From Dulcicalothrix desertica PCC 7102 (GTDB lineage Bacteria > Cyanobacteriota > Cyanobacteriia > Cyanobacteriales > Nostocaceae), in assembly GCF_003991905.1 (NCBI RefSeq), contig NZ_RSCL01000042.1:1-61926 (forward strand): a DNA stretch of 61,926 nt, in the 5' to 3' direction. Shown piece by piece: positions 9,195 to 43,691 of the stretch. The notes beneath the pieces are model-generated. The model made no database searches. It was not told the origin of the DNA and worked only from the letters and a program-made list of their open reading frames with translations. Position 1 is the first letter of the stretch. Each line of letters opens with the position of its first letter. A program made the translations under genes and the position numbers.

Positions 9195-10364
9195 CTATCC
9201 CTCAAGCTCATCTTCAACGGGGTTAGAGAAGCCGTATTCTTCGAGTTGACCCTCGCGCCGCACGTCACAAGTAGCGCAGTGGAATGACCCGCCGAAAGTG
9301 TAGACATGACGGAAATCAACGGGAATCACTTTAAAACCTAAATCTTTTAAAAGCTTCTGCATGGGTTGCTCTTGTTTTTCCACAACAATTGTTTCGGGGT
9401 CTAAGCTCAAGATATTCATGCACACCCAACTACTGCACATATACATAGGCCAGTTGTCGGGAAGGGTAGAAGGAGCGGCTTCTACTAAATCCCAGCCGGC
9501 TTTTTTGAAAAGATCAGTTTGGATGCAAGGTCTGGCAGGGTTAATTAAAGCTAATCCTGGTCTGAGAGGAACTAGGGAAGCGTCAATGTGCATTGGATTT
9601 AAGTCTGGGAAGTTGATTTCATGAACCCGGAATTTGTCGCCTAGATTCCGTTTGAGCCAAGTAATTCCTATGTTGTTGGTAACGTGGCTACGCTGGACAA
9701 ACAAATCTCGCCCAAAGCGCACAATATCAGCCGCATCGAAGCTGGGTTCAGTATCTCGGCTCACAAAATGCCCTTTTTCAGTCAGGGCATACCGTACTTC
9801 TACGGGTTTTGTGGCGAAGTCAACATCATAAAATTCGTCTGACATGGAAGGCTTAGGCGCCGTTGTCCACTTAGCCCCCCGCCGTAAGTAATCAAGCATC
9901 AAAGAGCGGTATGCGCGGTATTCAAAAAAGCGGGAGCGCCAAGCCATTGGGGCTTCAATAATCTCATTGCCAACAACGATCAGGATATCGCGAGGCATAG
10001 CGGCATAGAACCCATTCGCCTCAAAATCTGGAGTTTTGTAAGGCTGAGTAAAGTCGATGACATCAGGGCGCCGCACCGTCACACCCTCCGCTTCTAAAAT
10101 CCGGCAAAACTCGTTCAATTCTTTAGCGGCAGCTTCTATAAGTTCTTGTGGGAACGGTTGACCCCCATACTTTTGGAAAAACCACAAGTTGCTTGGATAT
10201 GAGTTGGTTTCCAAAGCTGGCTCTAATTTTGGAACTGCGGCGCCTTCAACGCGACCAACAATAACTTCTTTTAAGGGGTCCCATTCGTTGTAGCTGTTAA
10301 CGACTGGTAGCTGTTGGTTAGATACTAAGCTTGGGGTTGGTTTGAGTTGTAAAAGTGTTTCCAT
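9195..10364 (-). CDS. L-arginine:glycine-type amidinotransferase (AGAT/CyrA-like)
   Basis: The enzyme moves the amidino group of arginine to an amine acceptor, leaving ornithine. At 389 residues it matches the AGAT family over its full length, including EAPMAWRSRFFEYRAYRS and RRGAKWTTAPKPSMSDE. The catalytic set is intact: FDAAD at 209-213 (Asp), His259 in PMHIDAS and the thioimidate-forming Cys363 in SFHCATCDVRR. Relatives include vertebrate AGAT, CyrA of cylindrospermopsin and SxtG of saxitoxin biosynthesis. The acceptor here is unknown; glycine, another small amine or an NRPS-bound amine are possible. It is the last gene of the leftward operon, 80 bp after the terminal NRPS gene. The ornithine by-product could feed the PLP decarboxylase at 36885-38144. 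Confidence 0.93.
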   Translation of the reverse strand: METLLQLKPTPSLVSNQQLPVVNSYNEWDPLKEVIVGRVEGAAVPKLEPALETNSYPSNLWFFQKYGGQPFPQELIEAAAKELNEFCRILEAEGVTVRRPDVIDFTQPYKTPDFEANGFYAAMPRDILIVVGNEIIEAPMAWRSRFFEYRAYRSLMLDYLRRGAKWTTAPKPSMSDEFYDVDFATKPVEVRYALTEKGHFVSRDTEPSFDAADIVRFGRDLFVQRSHVTNNIGITWLKRNLGDKFRVHEINFPDLNPMHIDASLVPLRPGLALINPARPCIQTDLFKKAGWDLVEAAPSTLPDNWPMYMCSSWVCMNILSLDPETIVVEKQEQPMQKLLKDLGFKVIPVDFRHVYTFGGSFHCATCDVRREGQLEEYGFSNPVEDELEG

Positions 10365-10390
10365 TTTTAGTTATTGGATGATAGTTTGGA

Positions 10391-10426
10391 TGAAAGTAGG
10401 GTGAAAGTAGGGTGGCTTAAGCCACC
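10391..10426. repeat. Palindrome and short direct repeat between NRPS and amidinotransferase
   Basis: GGTGGCTTAAGCCACC (10411-10426) is a perfect 16-bp palindrome. Next to it the 12-bp unit TGAAAGTAGGGT occurs twice in tandem (10391-10402 and 10403-10413). It lies in the 80-bp gap of the leftward operon and could act as an RNA hairpin affecting read-through into the amidinotransferase gene. Confidence 0.6.
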
Positions 10427-10444
10427 TTACAAATATGTGGATAT

Positions 10445-13400
10445 TCATTTACGATGAAAGAGGTTTTGTTTTAGCACCGAAATTTTCTCCTGTGGATTGA
10501 CTGCAATAATTGTTTCCAACACATTCTTAAAATCTCCAAGTAAACAATTAATTTCATCAGCGTCAAAGTATTGACAAGAATACGAAATCGCAATATTTAA
10601 CTCGACACCAGGCACTACTTTTACCATCAGGGGATAGTCTAATTTTTCATCATAATCAATGAATTTTATTTCTAAATTATCCGGCAACTCTTGCAAGGCA
10701 TCTATGACTGGGTAATTCTGAAATATTAATAAGCTATCGAACCAAGGCGATTCAGGCATCTTAACCCACTCTTCAACATGACTTATTAAAGGAAAGTAAT
10801 CGTACTGGCGTAATTTAGCATGTTTAATTTGGATTTCTTTGAGCCAACTGAGCAATGGGTTTTCAACAGATACTTGTAGTTGCAGAAAAACTTCATTAAT
10901 GAAAAGTCCTACCATTTCCTCAACTCCTGTCACAGTTGCAGGACGACCAGAAACAACAGTCCAAAAAAGAACTTGTTCTTGCTTAGAGTAGCGGCTCAAA
11001 AGCAATGCCCAAACCGCTTGCACAATTGTGTTTAAAGTTAGATGATGTTGTTGTACCCAAGTGTTAATATCTGTTGTTGTTAGTTGTGATAGGGCGATTT
11101 CTCGCGTATTGTAATATTCCTCCTCGTCTGAAAAAGGACTAGGTTCTTCGTCAACATCTACAGTAGTTAACTTAGTTAAACCTTGTAATTCCTGGCGCCA
11201 TAATTTCTCAGCTTTTAATAGGTCTTGTTCCTGTAACCAAGCGATGTAATCCCGGTAAGGACGGGGTTTTTCTAAATATACATCTTTGCCTTGGCAGAAT
11301 TCTCTGTACAAGATACTAGCTTCTTTGAAGACAAGAGATAAAGACCATCCATCCGTTAATAATTGGTGTTGAGTCCATATAAATTGATGGACATTTTCAG
11401 CCGTTTGTATAATATCAAAGCGCATCAGTGGCGCTTTAGAAAGGTCAAAGCTTTGATTCAGTTCTTTTCCTAAGAATTTTTTCAAACGCTTGGACTGCAC
11501 TTTCGGAGATAACCCGCGCCAATCTTGTTGCTCCCAAGGTAGTGTAACTTGTTTATATACAACCTGGAGCGATTTATCTAGTTCTTCCCATAAAAAAGCA
11601 GTACGGAAAATCGAATGTCGAGCTACAACTTCCTGCCAAGCACGTTTGAACGCCGGGACATTTAAGGCGCCATGTAACTCCAAATGCAGACGAGATAGAA
11701 ATATTCCCGGTTGCGAATCTTCATAATATTCCGTAAACTCAAATATCATCTCATCTTGTAGGGGCGAGGCGGGATAGATATCTTCAATTTGTCGGTTGTT
11801 GCCAAGTAATTTCTTAATTTTCTGCAAATTAAGTCCAGAATAGGGAAAATCTGAAGGTGTGTAGCCACCTGCTTCAGGTGACTGGCAATGAACGATAAGG
11901 TTTTGCAATGCTGCTATAAACTCTTGAGCGAGGTTTTCAATTGTTGCCCGATGATGAACCGCTTCGCTGTATGTCCAATTCAATTGCAGTTGTCCTCCAC
12001 TTACCAAAGCGTTTATTTCCAGTAGATGACTACGGTTGCCTTGTGGGTTAGACTCTGCTCCGATGGACTGTTGTGCAATTTCAAATAGTGAACTCGATGA
12101 TATTACTGTATCGAATTGACCAAGGTAGTTAAAAAGTACTTCAGCCTGGGGCATAGCTTGTAGTCGCGCGGAAATTGCTTTATCTTGCTTTAAGTAACGC
12201 AATAGACCGTAGTTTATCCCCTGCTTAGGAATTTGGCGCAACTGTTCTTTGACAGATTTTAAGGCTTCTCCTGGAATGATTGTCTCCTCCAAATCTAACA
12301 GCACTGGGAAAATTGTTGTAAACCACCCAACTGTGCGTGATAGGTTTACCCCTTGAAAGAGGTTTTCTCGTCCGTGTCCTTCCAAGTCAACTAATAGGCG
12401 CCTTTTTCCGAACGACGAATTAAAAGCTAGCACTAAGGCTGTTAGCAGTACATCGTTAATTTGAGTATTGTATACTTGTGGTACTTCCTGTAGCAAAGCT
12501 TTGGTATCTGCACTACTTAGCGCCACAGATACTGTACGACTCGATGCGACAGTATTATTCTCTTTAACAAACAAATGCTCTACTGGTAGAGAGGGAACCT
12601 CAAACCGAGGTTTTGCTAGCCAGTACTTCAGTTCCTCCTCTAGCTCTGGTGATTGTGTATACTCGCTTAAAGATTGTGACCAATGTTTGAAAGAGGTCGT
12701 TTTTGGAGGTAAAGCGATTGGCTCACCTTGATTAAGCTGCTGGTAAACAGTTTGCAAATCCTCTAGCAAAATGCGCCAGGAAACACCATCCACTACTAAG
12801 TGATGGATAACCCACAGTAACTTATTTGGTTGAGCAGAGCCGAGGTCAAATAAAGTGACTCTCATCAGTGGTGCATTTGACAGGTTCAAACTCGCCTGTA
12901 AGTCATTAGCTGCTGCCTCTAAGGCTAGTTTTTGTTCTGCTTCTGACAGTGCTGACAAATCAACTCGATCAAGAGATACAGCGACATTGGTATCGGCGTT
13001 GAATTGCTGCCAATGTGAGGCTTCTTGCACAAAATGTAGCCGGAGCGCATCGTGGTGGATAATTAATTGTTGTATGGCTTTTTCCAATCGATCAGGATCA
13101 AAATCCTGCTGCAAGTCTAGTAGAAGCGATTGGTTAAAGTGATGTTGTTCGGGAAGATTTTGTTCAAAAAACCAATGTTGGATAGGTGTTAATGGTACTG
13201 AGCCTACGATTGTATCTTGTTCCACTTGAACAAAGGGGATCGTCTCGGTTACAGTTGCTAACTCGGCAATGGTTTGGTGCTGAAAAAGCTGCCTTGGACT
13301 GATCTGCAAACCAGCTTGGTTCGCGCGAGCAGTAATTTGGATGCTCTGGATCGAATCCCCACCCAGTTCAAAGAAGTTATCGTAAATGCTGACTTGTTTT

Positions 13401-16366
13401 AGTCCCAAAACTTGAGTCCAAATAGTGGCTAAAATTTCTTCCGTTTGGGTGCGGGGTAGCACAAAGTCTTTTTCCAAACTTTTACTAGTATCTGGTACGG
13501 GTAGGGCAGAGTGATTAATTTTCCCGTTAGGTGTCAGGGGTAGCGTGTCAATGAACACAAAGATATTTGGCGCCATATACTCAGGCAACTTCTGCTTCAC
13601 GAAGTCGGACAATTCACCTGTAGTGGATTGTTTTTGATCAGGAATAACATAAGCTACTAAACGTTTATTGCCTAATGTGTCTTCACGAACAATAACGACT
13701 GCTTTTTGTACCTGTGGATGTTGCTTAAGTACTGCCTCAATTTCTTCTAATTCAATCCGAAAACCACGTATTTTTACTTGAGAGTCAACACGACCGAGGA
13801 AATTAATGTTGCCGTCAGGTAAATAACAAGCTAAGTCACCAGTCTTGTACAGGCGCCCTCCTTTTTCTTGGCAAAAGGGGTTAGGGATAAATTTCTCAGC
13901 AGTTAACTCTGGACGGTTGAGATAGCCTCGGGCTATACCAGCACCTCCTATATACAGTTCGCCACTGGCGCCAATAGGAACTGGTTGCAAGTATTCATCC
14001 AATATATAAAGCTGAACATTCGCAATCGGACGACCAATGGGAATTGAATTTGCCAAGGAGCTTTGCTGCGGAACCTCATAGACACAACATCCAACAACAG
14101 TTTCTGTTGGGCCATATTCGTTGATTAATTTAGTGTGGGGTGCGTGCGTCTGCCAAAATGCAACACTTGTTGGTGGTAAAGCCTCACCACCAATAATAAA
14201 GGCTTTAGTTCGAGTTGGAACTTGGTTCTGCGGTAACAATTCGCTGAGTATTTCCAGATGAGCTGGTGTAATTTTAACAAGACTAAAATCATTTTTAGAG
14301 CTTAATAAATTACTAAGATATTCTATCTTTTGATTCTCTGGTAGCAATATTACTTTCTGCCCAACTAATAATGGAGAGAATAAGCTGGTGATTGTTGCGT
14401 CAAACCCAATCGAAGAGTTCACTGGGGCGCCTTCCCCATCTGCTACTGCATAAGCCTTTGCACACCAAGTTACATAATTAACTAGTCCTTGGTGAGAAAT
14501 CATTGTTCCCTTGGGCTTCCCAGTAGAACCCGAAGTGTAAATTACATAAGCCAAATTTTCGGGTTTTACTGTACTAACTGGCTTTTTGTTGCTATCGTAT
14601 GTAATTGCTTCCCAATCCTTGTCCAAACAAATTACTCGTGATTTGTCGGGAAGACTTTTTACAAGCTTTTGTTGAGTTAACACCAGCTGAACCTGGGCAT
14701 CTTCTAACATAAAGGCCAGCCGTTCCTGTGGATATGACGAGTCTAACGGTACATAGGCGCCACCAGCTTTAAGGATACCAAAAATTCCAATAACCATTTC
14801 TAGGGAAGGCTCTAAGTAAATAGCTACTAATGCTTCTGGTTTTACTCCTAACTCCTGTAGTTCATGGGCTAGTTGATTGGATCGAGCATTTAGTTCTGCG
14901 TAAGTTAAATGCTCGTTTTCAAACACAACAGCAATGCTATCTGGTGTGCGTTCTACCTGTTCTTCAAATAATTGATGGATGCATTTGTGTTCGGGGTAGT
15001 CGGTTTTTGTATTATTGAACTCAATTAACAACTGCTGTTGCTGTATCTTACTAAGAATCTCTAAATCAGAGATTGCAGCTTCAGGGTTATTGATAGCACT
15101 TTCCAGTAATGTACAATATTGTTCTGACAAAGTTTTGATATCATCAACTAAAAATAAGCTAGAATCAAAGAAAAAATCTAAGAGCAAAAAGTCATCTCTA
15201 CAAACACTAGAAAGTTTGACTTTGAATCTATCTGTACATGCGTATTGCTTGTAAACTGAAAACGATACGTCACCAGTAGTATATTTCTCAGCTTGCTCTG
15301 TAAAATCGAAACAGAAAGGGAAAAAGTGTGGTGCTAAGTCAGTATCAGTTACTGCAAGCTCCCAAGCAAAATACTCTTGCCATGTATCGATATTGTGTAA
15401 AGACCGACTAATTTGTTCTAGAACTTCTTGGAATTTAAAATTAGCCTTGAGATTAAAATGAATGGGTACATACTTTGCTAACAGTCCGAAAGCGTTTTTC
15501 AATTCCTGATGTTTACGCCCTTCACAGGCGGTTCCAATTACAACTTCTGACTTTTCAGTTAGGCGCCAAAGTAAAACTTGCCAGCAAGCTAGTAAAAATG
15601 CAGAAATCGAGGTATTATACTTTTGAGCAAGCTTTTTAATCTTTACTACCGTATCAGAATTAATGTTTAAGCTTAGAGATTGAGGTTCAAATCGCTCTTT
15701 CCCAGAAGGTTGACTTTCCAAAGGAAGTTTCAAGTTTAAAAGAGAAGAGATATTTTGTTGGCGCCAATACTCTATTCCTGTTTTTGTGTCTTCTGACTCA
15801 AGTAATTCATTCAGCCATTCAGAAATATCTGCATATTGCATTGATTCATCAGATATTTCCTGACCATGCAAGTAAGCTGTATAGGAACGACCTATTTCAT
15901 AAACCAGATTATTGAGTGTCACCCAATCTGCACAAAGAACTGGTAAGCTAACAAATAAAATATGCTCATATGATGACAGCTTAATTAAAGCTATATGCAA
16001 AATTTGGCTTTTTTCCAGGTTAATATCTTGTAATCTTGCCTCTTCAAAAAGTGCATTTATTTTAGTTTGTTGTTCTTGAGCAGCAAGACCACTAAAGTCG
16101 TAATTATAAATCGATACCGTTTTGCTTTCAATTATACTCTGAACCGGAACAGTATCTCCAGGCAAGCAATAAAAATTAGTACGAAAAATTTCTTGTCGAT
16201 TAACGATACTTTCTAAGGCTGCTTTTAAAATGTCTGGCTGAATATCTCCCTCAATGTGTACTCCAATTTGAGATAAATAGCTATGGCTGTTATCACTTTC
16301 TTGTAACAACCATACATGCTTTTGCTGAGGCGAAATCCGAAAAGCATTACCTGTTAAACTTTGCAT
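10445..16366 (-). CDS. NRPS, C*-A-PCP-E-C (terminal module with epimerase)
   Basis: The 1973 residues divide into a degenerate condensation domain (about 1-440), an adenylation domain (about 460-970), PCP (DNFFELGGDSIQSIQI), an epimerization domain (HHLVVDGVSWR, EGHGRE, NYLGQFD) and a terminal condensation domain (about 1530-1965). The first C domain has SLPVLCADW where HHxxxDG is expected, so its catalytic His is missing. By-eye pocket residues of the A domain are D-A-T-K-I-G-E-V-G, close to Asn-type codes, so the residue may become D-Asn or similar. The last C domain reads QHQLLTDGWS, with Gln at the usual second His. There is no thioesterase or reductase, so release might be amine capture by the terminal C domain or might need another enzyme. 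The free-standing C domain at 16396-17949 lies just upstream in the operon. Confidence 0.93.
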   Translation of the reverse strand: MQSLTGNAFRISPQQKHVWLLQESDNSHSYLSQIGVHIEGDIQPDILKAALESIVNRQEIFRTNFYCLPGDTVPVQSIIESKTVSIYNYDFSGLAAQEQQTKINALFEEARLQDINLEKSQILHIALIKLSSYEHILFVSLPVLCADWVTLNNLVYEIGRSYTAYLHGQEISDESMQYADISEWLNELLESEDTKTGIEYWRQQNISSLLNLKLPLESQPSGKERFEPQSLSLNINSDTVVKIKKLAQKYNTSISAFLLACWQVLLWRLTEKSEVVIGTACEGRKHQELKNAFGLLAKYVPIHFNLKANFKFQEVLEQISRSLHNIDTWQEYFAWELAVTDTDLAPHFFPFCFDFTEQAEKYTTGDVSFSVYKQYACTDRFKVKLSSVCRDDFLLLDFFFDSSLFLVDDIKTLSEQYCTLLESAINNPEAAISDLEILSKIQQQQLLIEFNNTKTDYPEHKCIHQLFEEQVERTPDSIAVVFENEHLTYAELNARSNQLAHELQELGVKPEALVAIYLEPSLEMVIGIFGILKAGGAYVPLDSSYPQERLAFMLEDAQVQLVLTQQKLVKSLPDKSRVICLDKDWEAITYDSNKKPVSTVKPENLAYVIYTSGSTGKPKGTMISHQGLVNYVTWCAKAYAVADGEGAPVNSSIGFDATITSLFSPLLVGQKVILLPENQKIEYLSNLLSSKNDFSLVKITPAHLEILSELLPQNQVPTRTKAFIIGGEALPPTSVAFWQTHAPHTKLINEYGPTETVVGCCVYEVPQQSSLANSIPIGRPIANVQLYILDEYLQPVPIGASGELYIGGAGIARGYLNRPELTAEKFIPNPFCQEKGGRLYKTGDLACYLPDGNINFLGRVDSQVKIRGFRIELEEIEAVLKQHPQVQKAVVIVREDTLGNKRLVAYVIPDQKQSTTGELSDFVKQKLPEYMAPNIFVFIDTLPLTPNGKINHSALPVPDTSKSLEKDFVLPRTQTEEILATIWTQVLGLKQVSIYDNFFELGGDSIQSIQITARANQAGLQISPRQLFQHQTIAELATVTETIPFVQVEQDTIVGSVPLTPIQHWFFEQNLPEQHHFNQSLLLDLQQDFDPDRLEKAIQQLIIHHDALRLHFVQEASHWQQFNADTNVAVSLDRVDLSALSEAEQKLALEAAANDLQASLNLSNAPLMRVTLFDLGSAQPNKLLWVIHHLVVDGVSWRILLEDLQTVYQQLNQGEPIALPPKTTSFKHWSQSLSEYTQSPELEEELKYWLAKPRFEVPSLPVEHLFVKENNTVASSRTVSVALSSADTKALLQEVPQVYNTQINDVLLTALVLAFNSSFGKRRLLVDLEGHGRENLFQGVNLSRTVGWFTTIFPVLLDLEETIIPGEALKSVKEQLRQIPKQGINYGLLRYLKQDKAISARLQAMPQAEVLFNYLGQFDTVISSSSLFEIAQQSIGAESNPQGNRSHLLEINALVSGGQLQLNWTYSEAVHHRATIENLAQEFIAALQNLIVHCQSPEAGGYTPSDFPYSGLNLQKIKKLLGNNRQIEDIYPASPLQDEMIFEFTEYYEDSQPGIFLSRLHLELHGALNVPAFKRAWQEVVARHSIFRTAFLWEELDKSLQVVYKQVTLPWEQQDWRGLSPKVQSKRLKKFLGKELNQSFDLSKAPLMRFDIIQTAENVHQFIWTQHQLLTDGWSLSLVFKEASILYREFCQGKDVYLEKPRPYRDYIAWLQEQDLLKAEKLWRQELQGLTKLTTVDVDEEPSPFSDEEEYYNTREIALSQLTTTDINTWVQQHHLTLNTIVQAVWALLLSRYSKQEQVLFWTVVSGRPATVTGVEEMVGLFINEVFLQLQVSVENPLLSWLKEIQIKHAKLRQYDYFPLISHVEEWVKMPESPWFDSLLIFQNYPVIDALQELPDNLEIKFIDYDEKLDYPLMVKVVPGVELNIAISYSCQYFDADEINCLLGDFKNVLETIIAVNPQEKISVLKQNLFHRK

Positions 16367-16395
16367 AATTCTACTCCAGTTTTATATTCAAATGT

Positions 16396-17949: not shown

Positions 17950-17955
17950 AATTTT

Positions 17956-18990
17956 TTAGAAGAGAACTCTAGAGGTAACAGTCGGACGAATACTTCGTGA
18001 TTTTCTTAAATCTCTAGTTATGTTTATCCGTTTAAGCCAACGGTCTTTTCCATCAAAATTCGCTTTGAAACTTTTTCGACCATGCACTGCTTTGTAATTG
18101 TCAATAAAGCAAAAATCTCCTGGCTGTAAAACAAGGTTTATTAAGTTGCCTTCAATTACTTTGACTAATTGGTTAAGTGCATTTGCTGCCTCTTTATCAT
18201 TTTCTAAATCATCCATGTAATATGGGTCAATACGAATGTATGGAGATTCAAAATCACCATATAATAGTGGTAGTTTTTGGGGGTTTATATTCATGTTATT
18301 TATTCGATTATAGGCAGATTCTAGAAACTGCTCACAATTCGTTGGCAGTGTGTTTAAGCTAAACTTATGTTTTTCTAAATGTGATTCATCTGGATGAATA
18401 GTAAAACGTTCTTCAAACAAAGTTTGGACTAGCTCTCGTTGGAGTTGTCCCTTCTCTATAGCTCCAACAGTAGTAGGAACTTGGTCTGGATTTCGTAAAC
18501 ACATTAGACCAATATAGTCACCTCTATAAGGATGAAATGCATCTTCGTTGTGCCACCAAAGTGGTTGTTCACTACTACTACCAATCTGCTCGTTTTCATG
18601 ACCCTTAATTGGGCAAATATTATGGACGATATGTCCAGCTTGCTGAGTAGACCAACCAATAGCTTCACCTAATAATGAACCCAATAGCATAAAAAGAATT
18701 TCTTCTTCTAAAGTAGGTGAAGTTTCTGGTCTATCCTTCCAATGAGATGGTGTTTTTCCTATTTTACTATCTGAAATTGGATATCCGGAAATTAAGCAAA
18801 TCCCTGATGATGGTTCTAATAATTTAAAGTTATTAATAAATGCACGTAATCTTTTAGGCAGTTCATGAGCTTCGGTGTTGACATTGTTCAGAAACTCGAC
18901 ATCTTCTACTGATGTATATTGAGAAGTAAGCCTCTCTAGAATTATTTTAATATGCTTTACTTCTTGCTCGGATAAAACAATCTTTTCCAT
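17956..18990 (-). CDS. VioC-like Fe(II)/2-oxoglutarate amino-acid hydroxylase
   Basis: A clavaminate-synthase-like (TauD fold) dioxygenase of 344 residues. The iron-binding triad is visible: His147 and Glu149 in WWHNEDAFHPYRGDYIGL, and distal His303 in YKAVHGRKSF. Arg317 (DRWLKR) is placed to bind 2-oxoglutarate. The HNEDAFHPYR signature is that of the free-amino-acid beta-hydroxylases VioC (arginine), OrfP and AsnO. Asp255 in RIDPYYM sits where VioC holds the substrate guanidinium. Because the next gene upstream is VioD-like, the most likely reaction is 3-hydroxylation of L-arginine, giving the precursor for capreomycidine. Asparagine or another basic amino acid remain alternatives. Confidence 0.88.
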   Translation of the reverse strand: MEKIVLSEQEVKHIKIILERLTSQYTSVEDVEFLNNVNTEAHELPKRLRAFINNFKLLEPSSGICLISGYPISDSKIGKTPSHWKDRPETSPTLEEEILFMLLGSLLGEAIGWSTQQAGHIVHNICPIKGHENEQIGSSSEQPLWWHNEDAFHPYRGDYIGLMCLRNPDQVPTTVGAIEKGQLQRELVQTLFEERFTIHPDESHLEKHKFSLNTLPTNCEQFLESAYNRINNMNINPQKLPLLYGDFESPYIRIDPYYMDDLENDKEAANALNQLVKVIEGNLINLVLQPGDFCFIDNYKAVHGRKSFKANFDGKDRWLKRINITRDLRKSRSIRPTVTSRVLF

Positions 18991-19066
18991 TTTACTTTCT
19001 TCTTCTCTTTTGTTTGCTTGTTGTATTGCTGTTTCTTTTTTCTCAGCTATAGTGGTGAACCAATGG

Positions 19067-20194: not shown

Positions 20195-20248
20195 TATACT
20201 TCCTTTCTTTGTATTAATTGAAATAAAATGTGTTTATTTTTCTTTGCG

Positions 20249-23617: not shown

Positions 23618-23657
23618 TTAAACCTCTTGTTTTAACAAGTTATTTATCTTCTCTTTC

Positions 23658-35098: not shown

Positions 35099-35311
<213 letters not shown>

Positions 35312-35823: not shown

Positions 35824-36807
35824 ATGTTACACAACGACTTAAACATTGCTCAAAGTAAACAACCTGGCTTTTTGATGAATGTGCCATTCTCTCTATCTAC
35901 TGAGTTTCCGAATAATGCGTGGATGCTAGACTTAGAGCCTGATGAATTGGTGATTGATAAAGAAAAAACTTTATCCCAGTTCATGTCATTGTACAGTTTC
36001 ATGTCACGTTATGCCGTTGTTTACTTGCTTCCAAGCGTTCCTGGACTTCAAGACCAGACTTACGTAGCTAACTTAGGGATTGTACTGCCACATACACCAG
36101 AAAAAACAGTTGTCATCTCTAATTTTTATTCCGAACCAAGACGGAATGAGAGCGAGATTGGACGTGACTTTTTCAAGCTAATGAAATTCTCCATTCAAGA
36201 TGCTCCTGAATATTTCGAGGGTGAGGCGGATTTAAAGCATATACGAGATAACGTTTACGTTGGTGCATACGGTCTTCGCACATCAAAAAATGCATTAGAC
36301 TGGTTTAGCAGAACTTTTGACATGAAAGTTATTCCCTTGTTGATGCAAGATGAATATCTGTATCATTTAGACTGTTGTGTTTTACCACTTTCTCCGGAAC
36401 ATTTAGCAGTATGTACAGAAATTGTAGATAAAGAGACTTTACATGAATTAGAAAAGTATACTTGTATTCACGATGTAAGTGTTGATGATGCGTATAGTGG
36501 GTTAACTAACAGTATAGTGTTAGGAAAACATCTACTTTGTGCATCTCATATTCAAGACCTTTCTCCCTCTCATGAAGATTATGAATACGAGAAGAACAAA
36601 ATAGAATCAGTTAGCTCACTATGTTCTTCTTTAGGTATGGAACCAGTTTTCTTTAATCTGTCAGAATTTTGCAAATCTGGCGCCCTTTTATCCTGTCTAG
36701 TTATGCACCTCAACCGCAATAATTACATAATGGGTGAATCGCTTAACGAAGCTGGCAATGTTAAAGTTTTTCAGTTCGAGTCTCAGCAAGAATTAGTCGC
36801 TCTTTAA
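35824..36807 (+). CDS. DDAH/arginine-deiminase-fold guanidino enzyme
   Basis: A 327-residue member of the pentein (amidinotransferase/dimethylargininase) superfamily. Landmarks fit the catalytic frame: Glu132 in YFEGEADLKHI, GLRTS at 150-154, His181 and Asp183 in YHLDCCVLPL, and a late Cys291 in SGALLSCLVMHLN. Enzymes of this fold attack a guanidine carbon through the Cys, either hydrolysing it (arginine or dimethylarginine to citrulline) or transferring it. The substrate here is unknown. Its place as first gene of the rightward arm suggests it works on arginine or on a guanidine of the product. A self-resistance role by modifying the product is an alternative. Confidence 0.75.
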   Translation: MLHNDLNIAQSKQPGFLMNVPFSLSTEFPNNAWMLDLEPDELVIDKEKTLSQFMSLYSFMSRYAVVYLLPSVPGLQDQTYVANLGIVLPHTPEKTVVISNFYSEPRRNESEIGRDFFKLMKFSIQDAPEYFEGEADLKHIRDNVYVGAYGLRTSKNALDWFSRTFDMKVIPLLMQDEYLYHLDCCVLPLSPEHLAVCTEIVDKETLHELEKYTCIHDVSVDDAYSGLTNSIVLGKHLLCASHIQDLSPSHEDYEYEKNKIESVSSLCSSLGMEPVFFNLSEFCKSGALLSCLVMHLNRNNYIMGESLNEAGNVKVFQFESQQELVAL

Positions 36808-36830
36808 ACCGACATTTTGCACTATCGTAG

Positions 36831-36847
36831 GGTCGTCACTGACGACC
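36831..36847 (+). repeat. Hairpin between DDAH-like and decarboxylase genes
   Basis: GGTCGTC-ACT-GACGACC is a perfect 7-bp stem with a three-base loop in the 77-bp gap. No T-run follows, so it is more likely an RNA-processing or stabilising hairpin, or a dispersed repeat, than a terminator. Confidence 0.55.
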
Positions 36848-36884
36848 TTACCCAAGCTAACAATAAATTACCAAAGGTTAAATC

Positions 36885-38144
36885 ATGGATATAAATATGA
36901 ATCAGGAATACTTTCCACATTTTTCTGATGTGCGTTCCCTTGTTAAAACTTTACAGCCAAATTACCCAGTTTATTGTGTAAGACCAAAGTTTATTCAGCA
37001 GACAGCAGAAAATTTTATCTCTCAATTTGCAGGGACTGTAATGTACGCAGTAAAATGTAACCCTCATCCACTTGTTTTAAACGCTTTATCTTCTGGTGGA
37101 ATCAAACAATTCGATGTAGCATCACAGTCAGAAATCGCGCAAATATTTAATACTTATCGCACTAGCCCGCATTTTATGCATCCTGTCAAGAATCGCGAAG
37201 CTATAAGAATTGCTTACTTCAAGTATGGAGTAAGGTACTATGCAGTTGACCATCTAGATGAGCTTGAGAAAATAGTTCAAGAAATAGGAACGGATCCTAA
37301 TGTTGTTATAGTGACACGTGTTAAGACTCCAGAATCTGATAGCTGTCTTTATCACCTTGCTAAAAAATTTGGAGCAGAACCAGAAGAAGCAGCTAAATTG
37401 ATGCAAACAACTGAAAAATATGGATTGAAAGCAGGTATTACTTTTCATGTCGGTTCTCAGTGTACTGACCCAAAACTTTACGGCAAAGCCCTAAATATTG
37501 TGGGCGAAGTGTTAGACTATGCTAATATAGAGCCAACGTGTGTTGATGTGGGAGGTGGATTTCCCGCAGCTTATCCAGGTACAAAGGTGGCGCCTTTGGA
37601 AAAATATATGCTGGAAATCAAAAATGGTTTAGATCGAATTAATTTAGCATCGTCCGTTCAAATCTTAGCAGAGCCTGGTCGCGCGTTAGTAGCATCTGGC
37701 TGTTCTTTAATAGTACAAGTGTTGCTGCGAAAGTCTAATCAACTTTACATCAACGATGGTATTTTCGGCGCCTTGTCTGAGTTACTAGACTCTGAGACTG
37801 TTTTATTATCCCAGCTAATTCGTCCAGATGATTCCGTTTCTGATGAGTTGGAGGAATTTTCTATATGTGGTGTTACTTGTGATTCGACTGATATGATACC
37901 ATGTAATTTTAAACTACCAAAAGACGTGCGTGAAGGAGATTGGATTGAAATCGATCAAGTGGGCGCGTATTCCAATGCATTATCAACACGGTTTAATGGT
38001 TTTTATTCTAAATCTTTTGCTTGTGTATATGACGAACCAATGAGCGTCTGCAGTAGTAAAAATAAAAATAAAAATAAAAATAATTTTTCCCGTCAAAAAA
38101 ATAAGTTGAAACAAATAAAAGAAATGAAAGAAATATGCATCTGA
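36885..38144 (+). CDS. Ornithine/arginine-type PLP decarboxylase (fold III)
   Basis: A group IV amino-acid decarboxylase (ornithine, lysine, diaminopimelate or arginine type). PLP Lys57 is in MYAVKCNPHP; FHVGSQ (His188), VDVGGGFP and LAEPGRALVA form the barrel's cofactor site; Cys332 and Asp333 (CGVTCDSTD) and GAYSNALSTRFNGF belong to the C-terminal domain. The CDSxD form is closest to ornithine/lysine decarboxylases. It probably makes a diamine (putrescine from the ornithine released by the amidinotransferase) or decarboxylates a guanidino amino acid. The last ~35 residues are Lys/Asn-rich and low-complexity, encoded partly by AAAAAT repeats. It overlaps the next gene by 10 bases. Confidence 0.88.
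   Translation: MDINMNQEYFPHFSDVRSLVKTLQPNYPVYCVRPKFIQQTAENFISQFAGTVMYAVKCNPHPLVLNALSSGGIKQFDVASQSEIAQIFNTYRTSPHFMHPVKNREAIRIAYFKYGVRYYAVDHLDELEKIVQEIGTDPNVVIVTRVKTPESDSCLYHLAKKFGAEPEEAAKLMQTTEKYGLKAGITFHVGSQCTDPKLYGKALNIVGEVLDYANIEPTCVDVGGGFPAAYPGTKVAPLEKYMLEIKNGLDRINLASSVQILAEPGRALVASGCSLIVQVLLRKSNQLYINDGIFGALSELLDSETVLLSQLIRPDDSVSDELEEFSICGVTCDSTDMIPCNFKLPKDVREGDWIEIDQVGAYSNALSTRFNGFYSKSFACVYDEPMSVCSSKNKNKNKNNFSRQKNKLKQIKEMKEICI
38058..38081 (+). repeat. AAAAAT x4 microsatellite at the decarboxylase 3' end
   Basis: Four AAAAAT units encode KNKNKNKN in the C-terminal tail. The unit is six bases, so length change stays in frame. Confidence 0.85.
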
Positions 38145-39112
38145 TTCCAGATTGGGAAACTGACCATGTCACTTTGGTATTACCAACAGTTTACATGGAC
38201 ATTTATAACGATTATCTTTGTGAACTTGAACTATTTTATGCTGATTTTTTAGTTGAGATATCAAAGTTCGATAAAGTTACTTGTATTGTCCCCAATCAAG
38301 CACATCGTGAAAAAATGTCACGGCTAAGTGGGGTAAATCCATCAATCTTTTACATTTCCTGTGTTAAAGATATTTGGTTAAGGGATTTTACCCCAGTTCA
38401 ACTAGATAAATGCTATGCCAAATTTATTTACAACCCTTCCTATTGTGCTAGTCATCTTAATGAAAGTACAGAACAATCATGTATGGAATATTTTAGGGTT
38501 GCCTCAGAAGGTAATGCTAATATAATACCTATAGATATATGCCTAGAGGGTGGTAATTTTATTTGTAACGGGCAAGGTACAGTAATTATGACAGAAAAGC
38601 TGTACTCTCGAAATAAAAGCAAATCTAGGGAAGAAATAGAAAGTTTACTAAAGAATAACCTGCCTATTGAAAAATTGGTAGTGATTCCTGTAGAGCCAGG
38701 TGATAGAACTGGACATATTGATGGCATGATCCGATGGCTTGATCGAGAACGAATTGTAATTAATGACTACAATTATGCGAATGTTCACTCGCGTAGATTT
38801 GTAGACAAATTACATGCATGTCTTGATAAGCATCTACCAAATGTTGAGAGAATTGAAATACCATACTGTCCTTCTCCTAATAAAACCTATGGTTGGTACA
38901 ATGCATCAGGAAATTATATAAATTTCTTAAGAACGAAAAATATGGTATACGTACCAATTTATGGTATCCCAGAGGATGAAGATGCTAAAGAAAAATATAG
39001 CCAAATATTTGGAAAACACGTATGCTTTTTAGATGCAAATGCAATCGCTAAATACGGAGGCGTATTTAATTGCATCACCATTACATATAAATCAGGACTT
39101 ATACCAATTTAA
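38135..39112 (+). CDS. Agmatine deiminase-family (PAD_porph) enzyme
   Basis: A 325-residue pentein of the agmatine deiminase/bacterial peptidylarginine deiminase family. Family landmarks are VKDIWLRDFTP (Asp84), LEGGNF (138-142), GHIDGMIRW (His194, Asp196) and a late catalytic Cys313 in YGGVFNCIT, where agmatine deiminases usually have GGG-I-H-C; the residue before Cys is Asn here, not His. Typical members convert agmatine to N-carbamoylputrescine. With the neighbouring decarboxylase and amidinotransferase it may process agmatine or a guanidino intermediate. The changed C-terminal motif leaves transfer instead of hydrolysis possible. It overlaps the decarboxylase gene, indicating one transcript. 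Confidence 0.85.
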   Translation: MHLIPDWETDHVTLVLPTVYMDIYNDYLCELELFYADFLVEISKFDKVTCIVPNQAHREKMSRLSGVNPSIFYISCVKDIWLRDFTPVQLDKCYAKFIYNPSYCASHLNESTEQSCMEYFRVASEGNANIIPIDICLEGGNFICNGQGTVIMTEKLYSRNKSKSREEIESLLKNNLPIEKLVVIPVEPGDRTGHIDGMIRWLDRERIVINDYNYANVHSRRFVDKLHACLDKHLPNVERIEIPYCPSPNKTYGWYNASGNYINFLRTKNMVYVPIYGIPEDEDAKEKYSQIFGKHVCFLDANAIAKYGGVFNCITITYKSGLIPI

Positions 39113-39143
39113 TATAAAGCTGCAATTAATAAAATCCCCCCAG

Positions 39144-39162
39144 CCCCCCTTAATAAGGGGGG
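39144..39162. repeat. G/C-run hairpin before the exporter genes
   Basis: CCCCCCTTAATAAGGGGGG forms a 6-bp G:C stem (extendable by two T:A pairs) in the 143-bp gap between the deiminase and exporter genes. CCCCTTATTAAGGGG-type hairpins are dispersed in cyanobacteria. It is not followed by a T-run. Confidence 0.55.
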
Positions 39163-39255
39163 AGTAAGAATAATAATGTGCATCTTCATGTAAAAATAGT
39201 GTTGGTTGCTCCCGTCCTGAAAGATTAGCAAGTGATCAGGTACTTAGAAAAACAT

Positions 39256-40272
39256 ATGAATAACATAGTTGAAGTTAACAACCTCGTTAAACATTATTAT
39301 GTACATGAGAAAGAAGCAGGGCTTAAAGGTAGCCTCAAATCTTTTTTTAATCGCAATAACAAAATTATCAAAGCTGTTGATAATATTTCTTTAAGAATTG
39401 CGCCAGGTGAAATAGTGGGTTTTTTAGGAAGCAACGGTTCTGGTAAAACAACAACGCTAAAAATGCTTTCTGGATTGCTACACCCAACTGAAGGTCAGAT
39501 AAAAGTTGCTGGTTTTACACCTAAGTATCGGCAGCATGGATTTTTAAGTTCAATTACCTTAGTAATGGGTCAAAAACAGCAACTAGACTGGGACTTGTGT
39601 GCCGAAGACTCATTTTTACTTCATCAAGCAATTTATGAAATTCCCGATCGTACCTATCGACGGCGAGTAGCAGAAATGACTGAGATGTTGGAGCTTAAAG
39701 GTCTTTTAAACAAGCAAGTGCGTAAGCTGTCATTGGGTGAACGCATGAAGTGTGAATTAGCTATAGCCTTGTTGCACCAGCCCAAAATAGTTTTTCTCGA
39801 TGAGCCAACTATTGGTTTAGATGTCAATATGCAACAGGCTGTACGTGAATTTATCGCTCAATACAACGAGTATTATGGTGCGACAATCATTCTGACCTCG
39901 CATTATATGGCAGACCTTACAGCCTTAGCCAAGCGTATTCTAGTCATTAACAGTGGGAAACTTATATTTGATGGAGATTTAAAAAGCTTTACAGAACAAA
40001 AAGCCCCTCACAAAGTGTTGAAGCTCCAGTTTATTGAGCCTCAACCAGCTCATATCTTGCGTCGATATGGCACTGTTCGCAGCCATGTTGCTAATATCGC
40101 AGAATTACTCGTCGAACACGTTGCAGTCACAAAGACAGCTGTAGAACTTCTGAAGAATCTTCCCGTCGCCGATATCAGTATCGAAGACATACCTATAGAA
40201 GAAGTTGTCCGTGAAGTATTCCGTAGTGGTCAAGTCAAACTGAAGCACAGTAATAATTTTGAAAAATCATGA
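39256..40272 (+). CDS. ABC exporter ATPase 1 (COG4586 type)
   Basis: A 338-residue ABC-2-type ATPase with Walker A GSNGSGKTTT, Q-loop region VMGQKQQLDWD, signature LSLGERMKCELA and Walker B KIVFLDEPTIGLD. The H-loop is in TSHYMADL. It matches the ATPase of the three-gene COG4586/COG4587/COG3694 exporter sets. A GTG at 39232 would add eight residues, but the ATG at 39256 fits the family start better. Its stop overlaps the next permease start (ATGA). It probably powers export of the cluster's lipopeptide. Confidence 0.93.
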   Translation: MNNIVEVNNLVKHYYVHEKEAGLKGSLKSFFNRNNKIIKAVDNISLRIAPGEIVGFLGSNGSGKTTTLKMLSGLLHPTEGQIKVAGFTPKYRQHGFLSSITLVMGQKQQLDWDLCAEDSFLLHQAIYEIPDRTYRRRVAEMTEMLELKGLLNKQVRKLSLGERMKCELAIALLHQPKIVFLDEPTIGLDVNMQQAVREFIAQYNEYYGATIILTSHYMADLTALAKRILVINSGKLIFDGDLKSFTEQKAPHKVLKLQFIEPQPAHILRRYGTVRSHVANIAELLVEHVAVTKTAVELLKNLPVADISIEDIPIEEVVREVFRSGQVKLKHSNNFEKS

Positions 40273-41060
40273 TGTATAAAATTTGGAAAGCTCGAGCTTT
40301 ATTAGTCAATGCTTTCTCAGAAGCTACTGCATATAGGGTAGAGGTCGTAATTTGGCTCATATCTGGTTTTCTGCCTTTAATAATGATGTTTATTTGGATG
40401 GGGCTAGCAGAATCTGGTCCGATGGGTGATTATAGTGCAAAAAATTTTGCCACGTACTTCTTAATGGTTTTTTTCGTTACTCAGACAGTCGAAGTATCGA
40501 CAATCCAAGATTTAAATAGTGACATTCGCTTAGGTTATATGTCATTTAAGTTACTACTGCCCCTTAATCCTTACTGGATGTATATGACAGCCAATTTAGG
40601 TGATCTGGTAGTACGTTTACCATTGCTTGTGCCATTTACACTAGCAGGCTTTTATATAGTAGGGGCATTATCTGACCTATCTATATTAAGCGTACTAGCA
40701 TTTATTCCAGCTCTTGTAGCAGCTTGGTTAATTCACTTTAACATGAGCTTTAATCTCGGTTTATTGGCATTCTGGATTGATAAAGCAGACGTTACCCACG
40801 AACTTCTTTATACCCTACAGCTTATTTTAGGTGGTGCATTAGCACCTTTAGCTCTTTTTCCAAAAGTTTTACTGTCTGTACTGGCTTACACGCCGTTCCC
40901 TTACGTTATAGATTTTCCCATAAATGTGATACTTGGATTGCACGGGGTAGAGTTGGTTGAAGGGTTTATAATTCAGATTTTTTGGGTTGTTGTTTTAACT
41001 GCGTTATATCGGTTACTTTGGCGTAAAGGTCTTCAGAAATATTCGGCGGTGGGTTCATGA
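40269..41060 (+). CDS. ABC exporter permease 1a (COG4587 type)
   Basis: A 263-residue integral membrane protein with about six hydrophobic segments, for example YRVEVVIWLISGFLPLIMMF near the N terminus and VLSVLAYTPFPYVIDFPINV later. It resembles the ABC2_membrane_6 permeases that pair with COG4586 ATPases. It overlaps both neighbouring genes by four bases, so the three are translationally coupled, and it would form the membrane channel with 41057-41842. Confidence 0.88.
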   Translation: MMYKIWKARALLVNAFSEATAYRVEVVIWLISGFLPLIMMFIWMGLAESGPMGDYSAKNFATYFLMVFFVTQTVEVSTIQDLNSDIRLGYMSFKLLLPLNPYWMYMTANLGDLVVRLPLLVPFTLAGFYIVGALSDLSILSVLAFIPALVAAWLIHFNMSFNLGLLAFWIDKADVTHELLYTLQLILGGALAPLALFPKVLLSVLAYTPFPYVIDFPINVILGLHGVELVEGFIIQIFWVVVLTALYRLLWRKGLQKYSAVGS

Positions 41061-41842
41061 AGCGTTATCTAAAATTTTTACAAATCTTCGTAGCTAATTC
41101 GTTAAAATTAGAAACTGAGTACCGAGTTCAATTTGTTTTAAGTGCCTTAAATTCTTTGGTGATTTTAAGTGCAGGTTTCATTGTTATTCAAGTAATGTTT
41201 AATCATACTAAGTCAGTAGGGGGATGGTCGTTCTATGAAACTTTAGCAATTTTAGGTGTCTTTATGATTATTGAGTCCTTCATAAATTGTGTGGTTGAAC
41301 CAAATCTGACTCAGATTCCTACAGACATCCATACAGGATATATGGATTTCAATTTACTTAAACCTGTAAATGGTCAGTTTTTAGTCTCTTTCTACCGCAT
41401 AAACATCTGGAGTATTCTAGACCTTTTTTTAGGAGTAGGAGTTTTAAGTTATAGCATGATTATCTTGGGAACAGCTAACATTAAAAATTTCCTATTATCA
41501 CTGATGTTACTTTTCTCCGGCGCCGTTATTATATATTCCGTTTGGTTTTTGCTTAGTATCACCTCCTTTTGGTTTGTAAAAGTCAGCCAAATTTCTGAGA
41601 TATTTTTGACCTTTTTTTCAGCAGGACGTTTTCCAGCTTCGGCTTATCCTCGTTGGGCACGCCTTTTCTTAACTTTTATAGTACCAATTGTTTTCGCCAC
41701 TACAGTCCCAGCTTCAGCAGCAGTAGGACGGCTAGATTGGAAAATGGCATTAGGAAGTTTGCTGCTCGCTGGAATCTTTTTGCTACTCAGCAATCTTGCT
41801 TGGCGTATAGCAGTAGCAAACTATACTAGTGCGAGTAGTTAA
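41057..41842 (+). CDS. ABC exporter permease 1b (COG3694 type)
   Basis: A 261-residue membrane protein with about six helices and the typical cytoplasmic turn DIHTGYMDFNLLKPVN that pairs with the ATPase. It is the second half of the heteromeric channel with 40269-41060, whose equivalent turn is DIRLGYMSFKLLLPLN. It ends 92 bp before the second exporter set. Confidence 0.88.
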   Translation: MKRYLKFLQIFVANSLKLETEYRVQFVLSALNSLVILSAGFIVIQVMFNHTKSVGGWSFYETLAILGVFMIIESFINCVVEPNLTQIPTDIHTGYMDFNLLKPVNGQFLVSFYRINIWSILDLFLGVGVLSYSMIILGTANIKNFLLSLMLLFSGAVIIYSVWFLLSITSFWFVKVSQISEIFLTFFSAGRFPASAYPRWARLFLTFIVPIVFATTVPASAAVGRLDWKMALGSLLLAGIFLLLSNLAWRIAVANYTSASS

Positions 41843-41934
41843 AAAGAAATACAATGGGATAGTAGTTACAAACTTTCTTGAATCATATAGTTTTAGCCAT
41901 AAAGTCATGCTATCTAGATACTAAATAGAGCAAT

Positions 41935-42723
41935 ATGTCCAGACAAATTAATTATTCTTCATCGAACCTAGGAACTTTTTTACTTGGCTTCATTCCCTTC
42001 TTTAATAAAGAGTTAAAAGAATGGAAGCGTAAAAAGTTCACAATTGCGATACTTGTATTAATTCCTTTGCTCACATCAATTGTGGCGAATGTGTCAACAA
42101 GTTTTATTGTAAAGCAATCGGATAAACCTCTCCCACCAACGGATTTAACGCAAGTTGCATCGAGCTATGGATTAAATTCTTTCTGGCTACTGCCTGTTAC
42201 AATTCTTTTATCAATTGGTTTAATCTCTAAAGAAGTAGATGCTGGTACAATTGCTTGGAATCTAAGTAAACCTCTATCGCGCAATGCTTTTTTACTGAGT
42301 AAGTGGTTAGTCACAACGCTTATGACCTGGTTAATTGCAGTTGTGACAGCAAATATAATTTCGTTAGTTGTAGCTGTTGTTAGTCTTAAATATACACCAC
42401 CAAGATTTAACGAAGTTATAATAGCAAATATGGCAGGTCTTTATTGTGTTGCTTTTTGGGTGTTAGTTTGTATAGTATTAGGTCTGCTATTTAAAAACCA
42501 ATCATCTATAGCTGCTGGCGCTTTAATGCTTGCGGTAGGTGGGTTTTTTATAAATATTGTGCCAAACAATAATTTAAGGTTATTTGCACCATATTACCCT
42601 AGTAATACTGTTGATTGGTTAGTTAGTTCACCGAGTATTCAAAAAGCGATAGCATCTTTTATATATGTTATCTTAATGGCAGTAATTGCCAAAGTTATTT
42701 TTGACAGCAAAGAATATTCTTAA
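41935..42723 (+). CDS. ABC exporter permease 2 (ABC-2 family)
   Basis: A 262-residue ABC-2 permease of a different subtype from the preceding pair. A cytoplasmic N-terminal amphipathic stretch (PFFNKELKEWKRKKFTIAIL) is followed by about six membrane helices, with SKEVDAGTIAWNLSKPLSR in the first cytoplasmic region as in NosY-like and DrrB-like permeases. It pairs with the ATPase starting at 42762, 38 bp downstream. Confidence 0.87.
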   Translation: MSRQINYSSSNLGTFLLGFIPFFNKELKEWKRKKFTIAILVLIPLLTSIVANVSTSFIVKQSDKPLPPTDLTQVASSYGLNSFWLLPVTILLSIGLISKEVDAGTIAWNLSKPLSRNAFLLSKWLVTTLMTWLIAVVTANIISLVVAVVSLKYTPPRFNEVIIANMAGLYCVAFWVLVCIVLGLLFKNQSSIAAGALMLAVGGFFINIVPNNNLRLFAPYYPSNTVDWLVSSPSIQKAIASFIYVILMAVIAKVIFDSKEYS

Positions 42724-42761
42724 CACCACATTCGTTTTGATTCTAACATTAAAAATTGGCA

Positions 42762-43691
42762 ATGACTTCTGCAATTTCAATCTCAAACCTTAGCAAAAAC
42801 TACGGCAAGCTCCAAGTAATCGACAATTTGAGCTTAGAAGTACCATTAGGCTCAGTATGCGGTTTTCTTGGACCCAATGGTGCAGGTAAAAGTACTACTA
42901 TTAAAATCTTGGTAGGATTGAGTAACCCAACTAGCGGTAGTGCAAATATTAACGGTGTTCCTGTGACAAAAACAGGTTTACATCGGCGCCACTTAGGTTA
43001 TGTAGCACAAGACCCACGCTTCTATGGTTGGATGACTGGGCGGGAAGTGTTAGAGTACGCTGCTAGTTATCACAGTAATGTTCCAAAATCACGTATTGAT
43101 AATTTGCTTGAACGAGTTGGTATAGCAGATGCAGCTAATCGTCGCTGTAGTAATTATTCGGGTGGTATGCGACAACGTTTAGGCATCGCTCAAGCTTTAG
43201 TTAGTAAACCTGCTGTGGTCATTTTAGATGAACCAGTATCTGCTATGGACCCAGTTGGACGTGCAGAAATTTTAGAACTAATGCGTGATTTAAGAGGAGA
43301 AACAACTGTTTTTTACTCTACTCACATTCTTGAAGATGTTGAACGTCTAAGCGACTATGTTGCAATTTTAAATCGAGGAAAACTTGTAAAAACCGCACCA
43401 ACTAAACAACTTTTGGGCAGCTACAGCAAAGGTGCCTTAAAAGTTGTTTTGAGAGGAGCAAACAATGTCATTACTAATAGCTTAAAACAAATTCCAGGTA
43501 TAAACAATGTAACAATAGCTGAACAGCACGGTGATGTTTGGACTTACAATGTACAAGCATCAGAAGAATGGGTAATGCAAATTCAGCGATTGATAACACG
43601 TTTTGCGGCAGAGCAAAATTTAACATTGATTAGAAATGAACCTTTAGAGATGTCGCTAGAGAAGATTTTCTTGCAATTAATCGAAGCATAA
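42762..43691 (+). CDS. ABC exporter ATPase 2 (CcmA/DrrA type)
   Basis: A 309-residue ATPase: Walker A GPNGAGKSTT, Q-loop GYVAQDPRFYGWMTG, signature YSGGMRQRLGIAQAL, Walker B AVVILDEPVSAMDPVG and H-loop YSTHILEDVE. The frame also allows a TTG start at 42756; the ATG at 42762 is preferred. The C-terminal ~90 residues form the extra domain typical of drug- and lipid-exporter ATPases. As last gene of the rightward arm it ends 59 bp before a terminator hairpin. Confidence 0.93.
   Translation: MTSAISISNLSKNYGKLQVIDNLSLEVPLGSVCGFLGPNGAGKSTTIKILVGLSNPTSGSANINGVPVTKTGLHRRHLGYVAQDPRFYGWMTGREVLEYAASYHSNVPKSRIDNLLERVGIADAANRRCSNYSGGMRQRLGIAQALVSKPAVVILDEPVSAMDPVGRAEILELMRDLRGETTVFYSTHILEDVERLSDYVAILNRGKLVKTAPTKQLLGSYSKGALKVVLRGANNVITNSLKQIPGINNVTIAEQHGDVWTYNVQASEEWVMQIQRLITRFAAEQNLTLIRNEPLEMSLEKIFLQLIEA

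Follow-up and report, generated by a model that had tools for sequence, protein, structure and literature searches.

A fatty-acyl-AMP-ligase-started NRPS-PKS gene cluster with a predicted capreomycidine-type enzyme pair in the cyanobacterium Dulcicalothrix desertica PCC 7102

As a building block, capreomycidine-type cyclic arginine is known to date chiefly from actinomycetes that make antibiotics. Does a cyanobacterium also make such a residue and build it into a peptide? The question is raised by a run of nine minus-strand genes (positions 9195-35311) on contig C42 of the 11.4-Mb genome of Dulcicalothrix desertica PCC 7102; the window analyzed is this whole contig, 61,926 bases long. A pyridoxal phosphate (PLP) enzyme and an Fe(II)/2-oxoglutarate oxygenase are encoded within the run, among nonribosomal peptide synthetase (NRPS) and polyketide synthase (PKS) genes. 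In all likelihood, the run encodes a cyanobacterial NRPS-PKS pathway that is started by a fatty-acyl-AMP ligase (FAAL) and makes its own cyclic arginine. The novelty lies in this setting and in a link to an adenylation-domain code, not in the kinds of enzyme.

The genes of the run, in order, are as follows.

35099-35311, minus strand: MbtH-like protein, first of the run (Pfam PF03621, 76.8 bits)
29651-35098, minus strand: FAAL, acyl carrier protein (ACP), condensation (C), adenylation (A1, code DQENVGAIT) and thiolation (T) domains (Pfam; the best PDB matches include fatty-acyl-AMP ligases)
23719-29658, minus strand: PKS module with ketosynthase (KS), acyltransferase (AT), C-methyltransferase, ketoreductase (KR) and ACP domains (Pfam, domain map)
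20249-23617, minus strand: NRPS module C-A2-T, A2 code DVEEIGVVT (Pfam, code, co-occurrence)
19067-20194, minus strand: PLP-dependent enzyme, very probably a capreomycidine-type cyclase of the VioD/OrfR clade (E10, S26-S27, K220, R346)
17956-18990, minus strand: predicted Fe(II)/2-oxoglutarate arginine hydroxylase, OrfP-like (H147-x-E149, H303, DPY motif; OrfP match, tree, pocket letters)
16396-17949, minus strand: stand-alone C domain with an intact HHIISDG motif (Pfam, motif)
10445-16366, minus strand: third NRPS (NRPS3) with a degenerate C, A3 (code DATKIGEVG), T, an epimerase-type (E) domain (HHLVVDGV) and a terminal C (HQLLTDGW) (Pfam, domain map)
9195-10364, minus strand: L-arginine:glycine amidinotransferase-type enzyme, last of the run (PDB and homolog matches)

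Neighboring genes are spaced between an 8-bp overlap and a 101-bp gap, and this short spacing makes a single operon likely. The first-pass annotation had placed the enzyme pair in one operon with MbtH, FAAL, NRPS and PKS genes, and all of these do lie in the same minus-strand run.

The PLP enzyme scores 461.6 bits (E-value: 1.5e-138) against TIGR03947, the NCBI model for capreomycidine synthase (cut-off 390.9). It remains under the cut-offs of the GntC model (NF041364; 264 versus 415) and of PRK07324 (284.3 versus 476). In a quick maximum-likelihood tree (92 rows, SH-aLRT support, no bootstrap; neither this tree nor that of the oxygenases has a GntD or MppQ row), it falls within a 76-row clade (SH-aLRT 99) together with OrfR (row L140, 100% to 4m2j) and the VioD of viomycin biosynthesis (row L132, S. 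californicus). Locus L132 is taken as the viomycin locus because its oxygenase is 99% identical to VioC (2wbq). GntC, the L-enduracididine cyclase of guanitoxin biosynthesis (8fft/8ffu), lies outside the clade, where it pairs with a gene of the Dulcicalothrix genome itself (59% identical, contig C36). The closest relative of the window enzyme is P0002 (84% identical), on a 5.3-kb contig. An ordinary aminotransferase identity was set aside since the tree puts the enzyme with OrfR and VioD, as its earlier description as VioD-like had proposed; four PLP-enzyme paralogs that the genome encodes are likewise separate from it.

The active site agrees with this placement. The previously annotated motif ISSSSVESFSLADIR starts at residue 24, the PLP lysine is Lys220, as annotated, and the catalytic glutamate (E10) and serine pair (S26, S27) are present. 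Residues E10, S27, K220, R346 (the carboxylate arginine) and A191 are kept in 76/76 clade rows and S26 in 72/76. PMC10367076 describes what these glutamate, serine, lysine and arginine residues do in OrfR and GntC. GntC shares with the window enzyme the fold, the lysine and one active-site serine, but it carries His/Gly in place of Ala191/Ser219, and passages of the same source give its ring product as five-membered. In an AlphaFold2 model (pLDDT 91.5), the top PDB match is OrfR, tied with a Streptococcus aminotransferase and with GntC close behind; because the matches are tied, the fold supports the superfamily and not the reaction. On sequence grounds, the PLP enzyme is very probably a capreomycidine-type cyclase of the VioD/OrfR clade.

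The oxygenase is most similar in the PDB to OrfP (293.7 bits, E-value: 1.6e-86), followed by VioC (264) and CmnC (260). The motif HNEDAFHPYR noted earlier starts at H147, and the distal histidine is H303. A 58-row tree separates an OrfP side from viomycin VioC, and the enzyme is on the former, in a starred set of 14 enzymes from cyanobacteria and Pyrinomonadaceae. It is identical to OrfP in each of the 14 columns checked (metal triad and pocket). VioC deviates in three, having D instead of E and GD instead of PY (DGD where the window enzyme and OrfP have DPY). The score against TIGR03946, the VioC equivalog model, is about 10 bits short (408.2 versus 418.6), so the enzyme is filed as OrfP/VioC-like and not as a VioC equivalog. 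Among seven relatives scanned, OrfP and VioC pass that cut-off and five fall short (394.9-413.3). The earlier label of VioC-like therefore holds for kinship with arginine hydroxylases but not in the strict sense, as the pocket letters are those of OrfP.

The oxygenase also passes the cut-off of the GntD model (NF041363; 495.4 versus 345). All seven relatives do so as well, OrfP (L140) and viomycin VioC (L132) included; the GntD name is thus non-discriminating and was not adopted. As it stands, the NCBI model takes in arginine hydroxylases from other pathways. In the S. tendae record NZ_CP043960 (L075), a gntD-named gene lies about 20 kb from vioD.

The two enzymes recur together. Pairs were counted over 77 other VioD-clade loci, after removal of nine duplicate contigs and ten non-clade rows. 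At 38/77 loci, an oxygenase match on the same strand is no more than 500 bp away, and 15 further loci have one within 5 kb; the other 24, some of them at contig ends, have no match within 5 kb. Ten of the 13 other cyanobacterial loci have the oxygenase within 500 bp and one (G125) at 2.7 kb, while the contigs of the remaining two end 115 and 256 bp past the cyclase. The cyclase itself is a scattered trait. Over-cut-off copies occur in 2/386 genomes of the phylum, 6/388 of the order and 10/217 of the family, each count including the window's own genome, and none was found in six other genomes of the genus among those listed. Acidobacteriota, Gemmatimonadota and one record labelled as Myxococcota also have VioD-clade genes (L081, L086, L087, L088, L089, L090, L092, L118), with the oxygenase close by in five of these eight loci.

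The NRPS module adjoining the pair (20249-23617) suggests where the cyclic residue would go. Its A2 code, DVEEIGVVT, is acidic at 239 as well as at 278. Of the 64 VioD-clade loci where an A domain could be read (the window among them), 38 have such a code, in 39 of the 140 A domains surveyed; 13 further loci have no readable A domain. These loci include the streptothricin ones (DVEEVGVVS, beside OrfR), several others from actinobacteria, one from Gemmatimonadota and 8/12 of those from cyanobacteria. In the other four cyanobacterial cases, the contigs are 9.9-24.3 kb long, and the one in G697 holds a truncated A domain whose letters from position 278 on are EIGVVT. As a control, 208 genomes of the family were scanned with a DNA pattern for FDVxxEEIFP, which gave 43 hits; E278 occurs at the window A2 only and at none of the 42 others, although this control is narrow, since the pattern required DV at 235-236 plus EEIFP and missed the A2 domains of other clusters. 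Viomycin-type loci use other codes, such as DPQDVGIVN, without E239/E278, so the DVEE-type code marks one group of cyclic-arginine pathways and not all. A2 is likely to load a cyclic arginine, to judge from its acidic code, which suits a basic residue, and from the co-occurrence of such codes with VioD-clade genes. The link of the DVEE-type code to VioD-clade loci, streptothricin included, is new here, and it offers a testable code for cyclic arginine. As a separate observation, the pattern occurs in 40 of the 208 genomes (the window's own included), and 41 of the 42 other hits (L158-L200) are coded DVEN[AVI]G[AV][IV]T or DVETTGAVT, near the window A1.

The proposed model, in which the reactions and product are predicted from gene identities, families, conserved residues and co-occurrence read in the sequence, is as follows. 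The OrfP-like oxygenase would hydroxylate free L-arginine at C3 and possibly also at C4. The PLP enzyme (K220, S26-S27, E10) would then form an external aldimine, remove the alpha proton and expel the 3-hydroxyl. Attack of the guanidine on C3 would yield capreomycidine or 4-hydroxycapreomycidine, which A2 would activate. On the assembly line, a FAAL-activated fatty acid would be joined to a basic amino acid (A1) and extended and C-methylated by the single PKS module. The chain would next be joined to the cyclic arginine (A2) and then to a D-configured residue, probably Asn (A3-T-E).

The alternative that survives best concerns the number of hydroxyl groups. In a streptothricin-like route, arginine would be hydroxylated twice (C3 and C4) and the cyclase would give 4-hydroxycapreomycidine for loading by A2. 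OrfP performs both hydroxylations, and the window oxygenase agrees with it in every one of the 14 columns, including the DPY letters that are DGD in viomycin VioC; 4-hydroxycapreomycidine is thus possible beside capreomycidine. The nearest PDB relatives of the two enzymes are OrfP and OrfR, and the A domain beside OrfR has nearly the same code as A2 (DVEEVGVVS). OrfR turns dihydroxylated arginine into gamma-hydroxylated capreomycidine, as a section of PMC10367076 states. However, the DPY letters are common to 44/58 oxygenase rows, whose products are mostly unknown, and L129, L130 and L131 have DVEE codes too, although their oxygenases are of the viomycin VioC branch (DRD); the code is therefore no indicator of the 4-hydroxyl. 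Sequence does not distinguish one hydroxylation of arginine from two, and the second is tentatively entertained as a serious possibility.

The comparison with characterized systems shows how the setting differs. The streptothricin enzymes OrfP and OrfR (Streptomyces lavendulae; 4m23, 4m2j) are the best PDB relatives of both window enzymes, and streptothricin biosynthesis shares with the window the pocket letters, the catalytic residues and a DVEE-type A domain beside the cyclase. The streptothricin gene order is cyclase, A domain, oxygenase, and its cyclase has 39% aligned identity to that of the window; unlike the window, the annotated stretch of the streptothricin locus L077 has no FAAL or PKS named. 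The viomycin locus L132 has the enzyme pair and a cyclase of the 76-row clade in common with the window. It differs in its DGD oxygenase of another starred branch, in having the oxygenase gene before the cyclase gene, and in A-domain codes that lack E239/E278. The FAAL-started setting is thus unlike the viomycin and streptothricin loci compared here. It rests on the start of 29651-35098, where the FAAL domain is fused to ACP and C-A-T; the best PDB match of this region is 7r7g (listed as a polyketide synthase, 689 bits), with the long-chain-fatty-acid-AMP ligases FadD23, FadD32 and FadD28 below it.

The nearest kin are the 13 other cyanobacterial loci, from Cyanocohniella sp. LLY, Nostocales HT-58-2, Scytonema RU_4_4, Pelatocladus HA4357-MV3, Scytonematopsis HA4267-MV1, Nostoc flagelliforme FACHB-838 and seven others. 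Their cyclases are 56-75% and their oxygenases 52-67% identical to those of the window. In the stretches fetched, 12/13 have NRPS matches and 8/13 PKS matches, and a DVEE A domain is present at 7/11 of those with a readable A domain. Their module sets are different, and no amidinotransferase match appeared in these stretches. From the look of the sequences, G125, G624, G635 and G785 have FkbH-like and acyl-CoA-dehydrogenase-like genes. Together with the window cluster, these cyclase loci give a defined two-enzyme test.

Some of this had been anticipated. PMC9332814 gives PRISM-predicted capreomycidine peptides for Cyanocohniella sp. LLY, whose locus (L078) is among the cyanobacterial kin found here, and reports that a Nostoc has a synthase with 82% identity. 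Capreomycidine synthase names on cyanobacterial proteins are already in databases, actinobacteria have been mined with the same two genes (a portion of PMC8399532), and cyclic arginines are constituents of actinobacterial peptides whose antibacterial activity is useful (PMC10367076). The first-pass annotation knew of no characterized capreomycidine product from cyanobacteria. A literature search over titles and the starts of abstracts, with most subscription journals outside its coverage, likewise found no characterized cyanobacterial product with a capreomycidine residue, but the synthase is already named in databases and in PMC9332814.

The remainder of the assembly line bears on whether a finished product is made. 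A1 probably selects a basic amino acid: its code DQENVGAIT has an acidic residue at 239, which we take to be a feature of codes for basic amino acids. The A3 code (DATKIGEVG) presumably resembles those for Asn. The first C domain of NRPS3 has LPVLCADW in place of HHxxxDG, and the lone intact C domain (16396-17949) probably stands in for it. The line ends A3-T-E-C, and the terminal C is closest to a microcystin synthetase B fragment (346 bits). No A, T or thioesterase (TE) domain follows it, and none of the operon proteins has a Pfam match to a thioesterase. Bare terminal C domains are able to release chains onto amines; at this end, the chain may be released onto a free amine, or a module may have been lost.

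A partly decayed line, having lost a downstream A-T-TE and yielding no finished product, would account for the degenerate first C, the bare terminal C and the missing thioesterase. Against decay, all nine reading frames are open, the lone C may compensate for the degenerate one, and the terminal C could act in release. An LPxLCAD-type condensation-like domain also precedes A domains in G697 (once) and G712 (three times) and may therefore represent a distinct type, not a product of decay. A decayed line is considered unlikely.

Cyclization on the assembly line is more improbable still. Here, hydroxyarginine would be loaded on the NRPS and cyclized there, as has been proposed for faulknamycin and muraymycin, and the PLP enzyme would have another role. 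Dehydrogenation followed by Michael addition is given for those pathways in parts of PMC10367076, and as a possibility in parts of PMC8399532. However, a VioD-clade enzyme with its catalytic residues is encoded 76 bp from the oxygenase gene, and the faulknamycin A-domain code, DLAESGAVD in a portion of PMC8399532, is unlike DVEEIGVVT.

Enduracididine chemistry of the GntC/GntD kind, to which the GntD score of the oxygenase might point, was set aside as very improbable on scores, tree and active-site residues: the GntD model takes OrfP and VioC too, the PLP enzyme is far under the GntC cut-off, off the GntC branch and has Ala191/Ser219 rather than His/Gly, no GntB is among the NCBIfam matches listed for five of the nine operon proteins, and the GntB/GntC-like pair of this genome sits on another contig.

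That pair is part of a locus on contig C36 (L211 8979-19998, contig 60978-71997, continued in L237). Its GntB-like arginine gamma-hydroxylase scores 411.5 bits (cut-off 380) and its GntC-like cyclase 401.8, just under the cut-off of 415; the two genes are directly beside two large NRPS genes. By sequence, this is probably a second cyclic-arginine peptide cluster of the Dulcicalothrix genome, of the enduracididine type.

The last gene of the run encodes an amidinotransferase most similar to human AGAT (467 bits), then to SxtG (350) and HsvA (338), aligned over most of its length. It has the Asp, PMHIDAS and Cys motifs of the AGAT family (DAAD from 210, PMHIDAS from 257 and HCATC from 362). Although alike in sequence to these three enzymes, it differs from them in closing an NRPS operon. 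AGAT-like matches occur in 33/208 genomes of the family, and the nearest homologs (65-70% identical) are in G642, G790 and G784. The G642 homolog (L239 14416-15600, about 70%) starts about 25 bp past an NRPS gene with a different code set, that of G790 is within 5 kb of a PKS-like gene, and that of G784 has no NRPS match in the surrounding 60 kb. The amidinotransferase was rejected as a conserved part of the cluster family, since the stretches fetched around other VioD loci gave no match to it.

The first-pass annotation had extended the cluster to 43691. Its span holds for the run at 9195-35311, whereas 35824-43691 consists of separate, divergent genes with only a putative link to the operon.

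35824-36807, plus strand: arginine-dihydrolase/DDAH-like gene
36885-38144, plus strand: ornithine-decarboxylase-type gene
38135-39112, plus strand: agmatine-deiminase-like gene
39232-43691, plus strand: two ABC-2 type exporters (ATPase at 39232 with permeases at 40269 and 41057; permease at 41935 with ATPase at 42756)

These genes could supply an amine and export, a putative link to the operon. Their conservation with it was not seen in the stretches compared, and the set was rejected as a conserved part: the first gene has kin at E-values of 1e-40 or lower in 3/291 genomes of the order, the window's included. One of these, G507, has a DDAH-like gene beside ornithine-decarboxylase- and deiminase-like genes on a 7.6-kb contig, and in G411 the DDAH-like gene adjoins what looks like another decarboxylase. 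No VioD-like gene is among the window-gene matches on the G507 and G411 stretches fetched.

Taken furthest, the product would be a polycationic, doubly guanidinylated lipopeptide. It would carry an OrfP/OrfR-type cyclic guanidine and an amidinotransferase-derived guanidine on the A1 residue (DQENVGAIT), and the bare terminal C would release it onto a diamine from the adjacent ornithine decarboxylase. The GntB/GntC-NRPS cluster on C36 would make the five-membered isomer, so that one cyanobacterium would incorporate both. This whole combination is doubtful.

At 4398-6521 (plus strand), the window encodes a PvdQ-like protein of the penicillin-amidase family (254 bits, under the cut-off). An acylase nearby suggests that the lipid might be removed, but the case for a prodrug-cleaving part is weak, as a second copy exists on contig C11 of the genome (66%). 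Acylases about 66% identical also lie beside the G624 and G635 clusters; they are nearer to the C11 copy (68-70%) than to that of the window (65-67%), and the role was therefore dropped. At 956-2472 (plus strand), the genes for an orange carotenoid protein and, after it, a fluorescence recovery protein make up a photoprotection pair that is ordinary for cyanobacteria.

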